61,463 bases of DNA from positions 1-61,463 of the forward strand of contig CALVUX010000010.1 of the NCBI GenBank assembly GCA_944363715.1, written 5' to 3'. The DNA comes from an uncultured Bacilli bacterium (GTDB taxonomy: Bacteria > Bacillota_I > Bacilli_A > RF39 > UBA660). This document shows, in pieces, positions 6,428 through 8,617 of the stretch; positions within the stretch are counted from its first letter, which is position 1, and each line of letters opens with the position of its first letter. Below the pieces are notes generated by a model. It was not told where the DNA came from. It did not search any database and was given only the letters and a program-made list of their open reading frames with translations. The position numbers were made by a program, and so were the translations under genes.

Positions 6428-6643
6428 TTTAACGATATCTTCACTATTTACAGGAAAATCTAAATTATTAAGTAAATCTTTAACTTCATTACTTACTTTT
6501 TCATTTTTTAACTCTACAATAACTTCACCTTTGTTATGGTCTGCTAAAACACTCTTAACTCCTTTTATCATCTTTAAAGAGTTCATTATTCTGTTCTCGC
6601 AACCAATACACTTTATATTAGAAACATTATATTTTATTTTCAT
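6425..6643 (-). CDS. heavy-metal-associated domain protein (CopZ-like)
   Basis: A 72-residue stand-alone HMA domain with metal-binding Cys12 and Cys15 in NIKCIGC; the usual Met two residues before the first Cys is Ile/Lys here. Predicted beta-alpha-beta-beta-alpha-beta fold. Such proteins carry Cu(I) or other soft metals to P-type ATPases or regulators, but no CPC-type ATPase or CopY/CsoR regulator is in this window, so the partner is unknown. GGGAGAG precedes the ATG. Confidence 0.85.
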   Translation of the reverse strand: MKIKYNVSNIKCIGCENRIMNSLKMIKGVKSVLADHNKGEVIVELKNEKVSNEVKDLLNNLDFPVNSEDIVK

Positions 6644-6707
6644 TATTAATCTCTCCCTTCTTTATAATTACAAACAAAATTTCTATCAAAAAATGTATCT
6701 TGTTCGA

Positions 6708-6736
6708 TTGTTTTATTTTAATATATATGTTACATT
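6708..6736 (+). promoter_or_regulatory. candidate promoter of the 30-aa peptide locus
   Basis: TTGTTT at 6708-6713, a 17-bp spacer and TACATT at 6731-6736. A start near 6743 would put the 5' repeat arm (6758-6771) inside the leader. The better-looking TATAAT at 6791-6796 would start transcription within the ribosome-binding site, so it is less likely. Confidence 0.45.
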
Positions 6737-6757
6737 ATTAATGGAATATCTAGTTGT

Positions 6758-6953
6758 TTAGGTACTATCCCCCTAACTTATACTAATTTATATAATGTGA
6801 AAGGGGAATTGATAATATGAGAAAAACAGAGAAATATTTATGCAATATCATCATATTGCTTATCATTGTAATTATTATCATTCTAATAAAATTAGTACCA
6901 ACTACTTGAGTCGGTACCATCTTTTAAAATAACTTTTAAGGGATAGTACCTAA
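6758..6953. repeat. 14-bp perfect inverted repeat flanking the 30-aa ORF
   Basis: TTAGGTACTATCCC at 6758-6771 is the exact reverse complement of GGGATAGTACCTAA at 6940-6953, 168 bp apart. The right arm is also the 5' half of the terminator stem at 6940-6975. There is no target-site duplication outside the arms. Confidence 0.85.
6817..6909 (+). CDS. 30-aa hydrophobic peptide, type I toxin-like candidate
   Basis: The ORF has a charged head (MRKTEKY), one run of about 18 Ile/Leu/Val residues and a short VPTT tail, so a single membrane helix is expected. AAAGGGG at 6800-6806 sits 10 nt before the ATG. Charged head plus single helix is what type I toxins of Gram-positive bacteria look like, but the sequence matches none I know. 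RNA features support a regulated short message: a 5' CCCCT that can mask the AGGGG of the ribosome-binding site, a 14-bp long-range pairing and a strong terminator. This otherwise geneless 408-bp region holds nothing else I can support. Confidence 0.55.
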   Translation: MRKTEKYLCNIIILLIIVIIIILIKLVPTT

Positions 6954-6981
6954 CATAGGAAAACTAGGTATTCCCTTTTTT
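6940..6981 (+). terminator. terminator of the 30-aa peptide transcript
   Basis: GGGATAGTACCTA (6940-6952) pairs with TAGGTATTCCC (6965-6975) with a small bulge, followed by TTTTTT. Its left arm can instead pair with 6758-6771. Confidence 0.75.
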
Positions 6982-7051
6982 ATTTATATGTAAATTTTCT
7001 TTACGTATTCATCATATCATAAATATATCTTATTTTCAAGTTCTTATAAGC

Positions 7052-8617
7052 TTAAAAACCTACACTATCAAGATATTCTCTTGCAACATCTCTTGGATTT
7101 TCTCCTAGTTCATCTACTCTATAATTTAATTCACTCATAATATTATTATTTAACTTATTACCAAGATCACTTAATACATCTTCTATTTCTGGATATTCTT
7201 CTAAAGTATCACTTCTAACAAGAGGTATTGCATAATATGGTGGAAAAGCATTTTTATCATCTTCTAAGACGACAAGATTAAATTTCTTTAATAGTCCATC
7301 TGTTGCAAAGGCATCTACTACATCACTTTCATTATTCATTAAAGCTGTGTATCTTGGACTACCATCTATTCCAATTATATCTTTAAAATTATAAGAATAT
7401 ACACTACTAACTCTATTTAATCCATCTTCTCTATTGATAAATTCAAGACTTGGGCTGATGACAAGATTACTTGAAACACGTGATAAATCACTCATTGTCT
7501 TTAGGTTATAAAGATTAGCAGTTTCCTGTTTAACTGCAAGTGTATAAGTATTATTAAATCCCATTTGATTTAATACTTTAATATTATATGTACTATTTAA
7601 ATCATTCTTAACAGTATTATAAACTTTTTCTATATCAGTAATAGGCTCATAATTTAGAGTATCTCCATAGACAGTACCTGTATAGTCTATATATAAATCA
7701 ATATCTCCTCTTTTTAAAGCTTCAAAACATACTTGAGTACCACCTAGATTACAGTTTTCAACCGTCTCATAATCAGTTTTATCTTTAATCGCATCACTTA
7801 CCATATAACAAAGGATATTTTGTTCTGTAAAGTCTTTACTACCTACGACAATAGCATTGTCATTTTTATTTGATGAAAAAAATGTATAACCAAAGATTAT
7901 GATTAAGATGATAGCAGTTACTACTAAGATAATCTTTTGATGGAATCTTTTTTTCTTTAATAATTTTTTATCTAAATCACTACCCTTTTGAAGACTTATA
8001 GGGGTTACTAGTTTTTCAACTATACCAATAATGTAATCGACTGCTAAAGCAAGTAGACATGCTGGTATTGCCCCTGCTAGTATTTGGTAGTTATTAACAG
8101 TCCTAATACCTGAGAAAACAAGATAACCTAGACCTCCACCTCCGATAAAGGCAGCCATTGTCATAAGTCCTACCGCTGTAACAGCACTTATTCTAATACC
8201 TGCCATAATTACTGGTAGAGCTAGAGGTATTTGAATTTTGTAAAGTATTTGCCATTTAGTTAAGCCAATACCAGTTGCAGACTCTATCATATTACTATCT
8301 ATATTACTAATACCTGTATAAGTGTTCTTAATAATTGGTAGTAAGGAATATAAAACTACCATTACAATAGCAGGGGTTGTACCTATTCCAAGAAAAGGAA
8401 TAGCAAAACCCAAAAGAGCCATACTAGGTATCGCTTGAATAACACTTGCAACTCCTAAGACAGGTTTATTTATCTTTTTAACATAACTAATTAAAATACC
8501 AATAGGAACACCTATTACGATAGCAAGTAAGACTGATAGAAAAGTTAGTTCAATATGCTCTATTAGTAAAGATATAATTTGATCTATATTATTACCGATG
8601 TACTCTAAAAAGTCCAT
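7052..8617 (-). CDS. glycine betaine/carnitine/choline ABC transporter, permease-binding protein fusion
   Basis: Residues 1-210 are an OpuBB/ProW-type permease with about five or six helices and the EAA-like loop ESATGIGLTKWQILYKIQIPLALP. One more helix follows at about 230-250, then an OpuBC-type substrate-binding domain (about 258-521) held on the outer membrane face, with VGSKDFTEQNIL at its start and YIDYTGTVYGD inside, typical of quaternary-ammonium-compound binding proteins. Fusion of both parts is known for OpuA/BusAB-type systems. The start ATG shares one base with the ATPase stop codon (TAATG), so the two are translationally coupled. Confidence 0.92.
   Translation of the reverse strand: MDFLEYIGNNIDQIISLLIEHIELTFLSVLLAIVIGVPIGILISYVKKINKPVLGVASVIQAIPSMALLGFAIPFLGIGTTPAIVMVVLYSLLPIIKNTYTGISNIDSNMIESATGIGLTKWQILYKIQIPLALPVIMAGIRISAVTAVGLMTMAAFIGGGGLGYLVFSGIRTVNNYQILAGAIPACLLALAVDYIIGIVEKLVTPISLQKGSDLDKKLLKKKRFHQKIILVVTAIILIIIFGYTFFSSNKNDNAIVVGSKDFTEQNILCYMVSDAIKDKTDYETVENCNLGGTQVCFEALKRGDIDLYIDYTGTVYGDTLNYEPITDIEKVYNTVKNDLNSTYNIKVLNQMGFNNTYTLAVKQETANLYNLKTMSDLSRVSSNLVISPSLEFINREDGLNRVSSVYSYNFKDIIGIDGSPRYTALMNNESDVVDAFATDGLLKKFNLVVLEDDKNAFPPYYAIPLVRSDTLEEYPEIEDVLSDLGNKLNNNIMSELNYRVDELGENPRDVAREYLDSVGF

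Follow-up and report, generated by a model that had tools for sequence, protein, structure and literature searches.

The window, a stretch of 61,463 nucleotides, comes from a draft genome of 1.4 Mb in 39 contigs. Here, a short open reading frame (ORF), a set of complementary RNA arms, and a predicted gene on the opposite strand lie together, with their features being as follows.

6690-6711, plus strand: block AAAATGTATCTTGTTCGATTG, overlapping the sense -35 region
6708-6736, plus strand: predicted toxin promoter, TTGTTT (6708-6713), 17 bp, TACATT (6731-6736), start at about 6743
6743-6981, plus strand: predicted toxin mRNA, with a terminator and then a U run at its 3' end
6743-6755, plus strand: arm 1, pairing with arm 4 in the full mRNA and with arm 2 in the nascent leader
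6758-6771, plus strand: arm 2, TTAGGTACTATCCC, perfect complement of arm 3
6770-6774, plus strand: anti-SD CCCCT, pairing with the Shine-Dalgarno (SD) sequence at 6802-6806
6802-6806, plus strand: SD sequence AGGGG, as read from the sequence
6817-6909, plus strand: ORF of the family A putative membrane toxin, 30 codons, TGA at 6907, peptide MRKTEKYLCNIIILLIIVIIIILIKLVPTT
6940-6953, plus strand: arm 3, pairing with arm 2, or with the arm 4 side in the terminator
6962-6974, plus strand: arm 4, which together with arm 3 makes up the mRNA's intrinsic terminator (6938-6978), with a T run after it
6893-6919, minus strand (6919 to 6893): antisense intrinsic terminator, a hairpin (-13.7 kcal/mol) and T run, conserved
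6887-7004, minus strand: predicted antisense RNA (putative antitoxin) of about 117 nt, bounded by promoter and terminator
7011-7039, minus strand (7039 to 7011): predicted antisense promoter TTGAAA-17-TATGAT, scoring 10/12 in the pattern scan, with TG before the -10

The initial annotation had described a 30-codon ORF with its own ribosome-binding site, and both the ORF and the SD sequence are indeed present, this being the small hydrophobic peptide ORF that a type I toxin-antitoxin locus contains. The sense promoter has weak hexamers relative to the consensus and is absent from the output of a pattern scan of 6640-7100, while the aligned copies show a readable -35/-10 pair at the matching place. 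The 30-aa ORF itself is intact in all 44 aligned copies and is conserved across genera. As the antisense terminator sits on the conserved C-terminal VPT codons, part of the peptide conservation may be an RNA constraint, and selection was therefore computed without the last six codons. The resulting dN/dS is about 0.40 in the 30-aa class (38 copies), and pN/pS is 0.19 in the 33-aa class (six copies), both being point estimates from pairs that are not independent. Judged by these ratios, the family A peptide is under purifying selection.

Three pairings within the transcript had been proposed earlier, and each can be seen: the 14-bp arm at 6758-6771 is exactly complementary to 6940-6953, the latter also forms the terminator hairpin with about 6965-6978, and CCCCT at 6770-6774 is complementary to the AGGGG of the SD sequence, which it can mask. 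Moreover, we observed a second end-closing helix of 13 bp (6743-6755/6962-6974) that was absent from the initial annotation. This second helix gives four mutually complementary arms, and so the pairing can be either 1:2 plus 3:4, which corresponds to a nascent leader hairpin and the terminator, or 1:4 plus 2:3, which corresponds to a closed mRNA. Folding of the 239-nt transcript (6743-6981), a comparison that had been suggested with the annotation, gave -62.6 kcal/mol with z = -5.5 (0 of 200 dinucleotide shuffles as good), and the closed form was favoured by 16.9 kcal/mol over the best fold without long-range pairs (those above 130 nt forbidden). In the full transcript, the SD region is predicted to be 92% paired, and the predicted cost of opening it is 7.6 kcal/mol in the full mRNA but 10.1 kcal/mol with the 3' part taken out of the fold, as if bound by antisense. 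All truncated forms of the mRNA leave the SD sequence mostly paired, and the fold energies by themselves do not reveal how translation would be switched on.

Conservation of the ORF and arms in relatives and covariation of the pairing, the two further checks put forward with the annotation, both came out in its favour, in that ORF and arms are kept across genera and both the long-distance helix and the SD hairpin covary among the 44 copies. The long-distance helix is 98.8% paired, as against 29-48% for slid controls. Since the copies are related sequences, the following shuffle figures are not probabilities: the covariation score of the long-distance helix exceeds all 500 shuffles (and lies far above the slid controls), its cells changed on both sides number 29 versus 10 in shuffles (0/500), its pairs with a two-sided change number 4 versus 2.5 (39/500), a modest excess, and the SD hairpin, which is 87% paired, likewise scores above all shuffles.

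Competition between a terminator and antiterminator-like pairings is also what a leader peptide or an attenuator/riboswitch-type regulator of the adjoining gene would display. Nonetheless, the element ends in a full terminator, the 3' gene (7052-8617) lies on the minus strand, copies adjoin unrelated genes, and the Rfam families here are all below threshold, and we thus regard such a regulator as hardly credible.

On the minus strand, the promoter and terminator of the predicted antisense gene are both additions to the initial annotation. The predicted RNA would pair with the mRNA over about 95 nt, in the 3' UTR and the end of the coding region, with its terminator overlapping the final codons of the ORF (LVPTT-stop). 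This terminator is the only one that the pattern scan found in 6640-7100, where shuffles lead one to expect 0.1. For the promoter, minus-strand matches this good number 4 against 3.9 expected, which is not above chance in AT-rich DNA, and so only conservation speaks for it. In this regard, the -35/-10 elements of most copies in the genus score 9.5-10.5 at the matching place with a 17-bp spacer, and the whole antisense unit is kept in 36 aligned copies from many genera. Folding of the antisense RNA gave a z of -3.6, and no pair with a double change was seen in the terminator within family A. By sequence and conservation, the locus carries a predicted antisense RNA gene directed against the predicted toxin mRNA, the second component of a type I toxin-antitoxin system.

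The antisense layout is common to several peptide families (A-E), with the following patterns.

Family A: MRKxEKxLCxII...IKxVPTx
Family B: M[SN]KKDFLI...
Family C: MK[IT]KTFI...VIKK
Family D: MTNREKSQFIIII...
Family E: MRKKDILII..., perhaps a variant of family B

In families A, B, and C, which were those examined, the 5'-3' helix is kept and the arm sequences differ. A covariance model (R1), built from the family A antisense region only, was then paired with an ORF scan: an SD-led hydrophobic ORF stands at the expected opposite-strand place in 22 of 28 matches (0.6% of dinucleotide shuffles), and reading the other six individually gave three more ORFs, with GGTGG as the SD sequence. Within the window's own 1.4-Mb genome, R1 locates 22 loci (the last at E 0.0011). 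Of these, 20 have an SD-led hydrophobic ORF of 22-33 aa on the opposite strand at a near-constant place (starts 224-263 nt from the antisense -35 side), as found with a slightly looser SD pattern and with the shuffle control belonging to the 28-match scan rather than to this one. Going by these sequence comparisons, the finding is one of several new peptide families with about twenty loci per genome, rather than of one new peptide.

A DNA search was positive for 34 of 35 genomes in the genus, and for 128 of 291 genomes (84 of 150 genera) in the family. With R1, matches came from 213 of 288 genomes in the order, all in one family among the matches listed, and from 26 of 296 genomes sampled across the class, with one genome only lying outside the family. 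This sole outside match in the class sample (L254, G598:C32:11712-11861) encodes a family C-like peptide, and it is possibly a case of horizontal transfer or of a misbinned contig. The exact arm pattern occurs in records of metagenome-assembled genomes labelled mostly as uncultured Bacilli or Tenericutes, Candidatus Onthousia included, and the lineage is placed in the order RF39. UBA660/RF39 is named in PMC13155120, where a set of 61 samples from chicken caeca is described.

Dispersed, multi-copy occurrence with complementary ends, together with a strongly conserved block that extends past the RNA ends, could also describe a miniature mobile element (MITE-like), in which the arms are transposon ends and the ORF is incidental. 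We consider this very improbable, as the complementary ends match the positions predicted for the start and the terminator of the RNA, and the interior is under coding selection and carries a promoter, an SD sequence, and two terminators. Furthermore, the layout is kept despite different interiors, the locus is common to several species at matching genes, and a search of phages, plasmids, and viral contigs with the element gave no match.

Among relatives of several species, the window's own site between one pair of neighbouring genes is found in several states. In the window it is occupied by family A, with an upstream neighbour common also to L009-L014, while L011 has A plus B, L065 has B alone, and L029, L060, L061, and L062 have kept the antisense half with the ORF and leader gone. 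Frame-broken ORFs occur at other sites (L039 and L241). Such lopsided decay, with the ORF lost and the antisense half retained, fits a toxin held by its antitoxin. Other small membrane peptides are regulators, and the conserved peptides might likewise be antisense-controlled helper or stress peptides of benign function under a similar RNA control. However, the roughly twenty divergent copies per genome, the recurrent disappearance of the ORF where the antisense half persists, the frame-broken copies, and the double masking of the SD sequence are all habits of toxin genes, which makes a regulated small membrane protein of this kind unlikely. Downstream of the element, L009, L010, and L014 have several hundred extra bases ahead of the 3' neighbour gene, starting just after the antisense -35, and the edge of the element may be a preferred junction.

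The best explanation, and to our minds a very probable one given the sequence and its conservation, is a chromosomal type I toxin-antitoxin-like module made up of a 30-aa single-helix putative membrane toxin and a cis-antisense RNA. Its earlier description as type I toxin-like and possibly a new family thereby gains support from the conserved ORF and arms, the covarying helices, and the encoded antisense gene. The accompanying statement that no known toxin matches also holds, with Pfam, NCBIfam, PHROGs, and PADLOC giving nothing near the cut-off and peptide identity alone offering no link to a known toxin. In Rfam, no family reached the gathering threshold in this stretch. A permissive Rfam search returned Listeria rli22 on the minus strand (23 bits versus 80 required, E 0.21) and, more weakly, a snoRNA, both of which we took as chance.

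Of the systems compared, bsrG/SR4 from Bacillus subtilis is closest in its working. In that system, binding of the antisense to the 3' part of the mRNA's main helix lengthens the SD masking and brings about cleavage by RNase III (PMC6562991, PMC3531473), and the predicted change in SD opening here (7.6 to 10.1 kcal/mol) has a like direction. Both bsrG/SR4 and txpA/RatA share with the present module a small hydrophobic peptide and a convergent antisense RNA over the mRNA 3' end, with an overlap of about 100-140 nt in theirs and a predicted one of about 95 nt here. In contrast to these, the ORFs found here are 22-33 aa and without a Pfam or NCBIfam match, the loci are chromosomal, free of phage, plasmid, or viral matches, and number about twenty per 1.4-Mb genome, and the antisense terminator (in family A) lies on the last codons. 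No peptide similarity to TxpA/BsrG was detected, as judged by Pfam and NCBIfam profiles rather than by direct alignment to the toxins.

A likeness in RNA architecture is found with aapA/IsoA from Helicobacter pylori, which has a 30-aa peptide, several loci per genome, and a 5'-3' long-distance interaction together with metastable hairpins that mask the SD sequence, for which covariation gives support (PMC6733600). The present module, with both a 5'-3' helix and an SD-masking hairpin, resembles the long-range closed form and the metastable leader hairpins of hok and aapA3 (PMC6733600). IsoA base-pairs over 80 bp with the active truncated mRNA, whereas the predicted antisense here (6887-7004) covers the 3' UTR and does not target the 5' UTR and ORF of an active 3'-truncated mRNA. 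Clostridioides difficile, likewise a low-GC Gram-positive bacterium, has more than ten type I modules per genome, CD2517.1-RCd8 among them, in which the toxin and antisense genes converge and overlap and the toxins lack homology to others (PMC6563280). The toxins studied best in that species measure 47-53 aa, many lie in prophages, and the text consulted mentions no 5'-3' interaction (PMC6563280). Lastly, antitoxin-only loci are common for zor/orz in E. coli (PMC11264685) and in this they are alike, although the peptide and antisense arrangement differs.

Our best reading by analogy is that the module would work like bsrG/SR4, with peptide families that are undescribed, and we infer its transcription, toxicity, refolding order, processing, trigger, and the role of RNase III along the following lines. 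In the nascent mRNA, arm 1 would pair with arm 2 and the anti-SD would mask the SD sequence. Once arms 3 and 4 form the terminator, refolding to 1:4 plus 2:3 would join both ends of the mRNA in a stable and poorly translated form. Being nearly identical in sequence to the 5' arms, the antisense RNA can compete for arms 3 and 4, and its binding there would produce a long duplex, free the leader, and tighten the SD masking, with the duplex as a probable target of RNase III. A shortage of antisense or processing of the mRNA would then allow the peptide to be made, presumably harming or depolarising the membrane.

More tentatively, and with somewhat less than even confidence, we suggest a lineage-wide modular type I superfamily of about twenty members per reduced 1.4-Mb genome. 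In this arrangement, recombination between constant promoter and terminator ends would swap, tandemly duplicate, or delete the several unrelated-looking peptide cores that lie between them, with antitoxin-only scars left behind, and the density would point to a working network (e.g., phage defence or dormancy) and not to passive addiction genes. In the papers searched, we found no report of type I toxin-antitoxin genes packed this densely into the reduced genome of an uncultured gut member of the Bacilli. The hybrid layout of a 5'-3' closed mRNA with a convergent 3' antisense, in which the arms differ by family, offers natural replicates, and these allow tests of how antisense RNA silences circularised toxin mRNAs. 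In addition, R1 locates the loci via the antitoxin, while short peptides escape ordinary searches.

Upstream, block AAAATGTATCTTGTTCGATTG is common to most of the genus's copies in families A and B, and its core occurs in five exact copies across the genome, each of them at a family A/B element. Besides the window, the block stands at G000 C2:18261, C2:22814, C3:21959, and C22:1482. It is possibly an operator or a -35/UP element. In L051, L053, and L066, the block is lengthened into the inverted repeat AATGTATCTT...AAGATACATT, resembling an operator for a putative regulator. LexA/SOS control was considered as well, but in this block, ahead of the sense promoter, a single half-site, CGAAC (minus strand), is present and the second is lacking, and hence SOS control is unsupported. 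The lexA promoter of the same genome (L183, minus strand, upstream of lexA) contains a CGAAC-N4-GTTTA box, a probable LexA site in this lineage.
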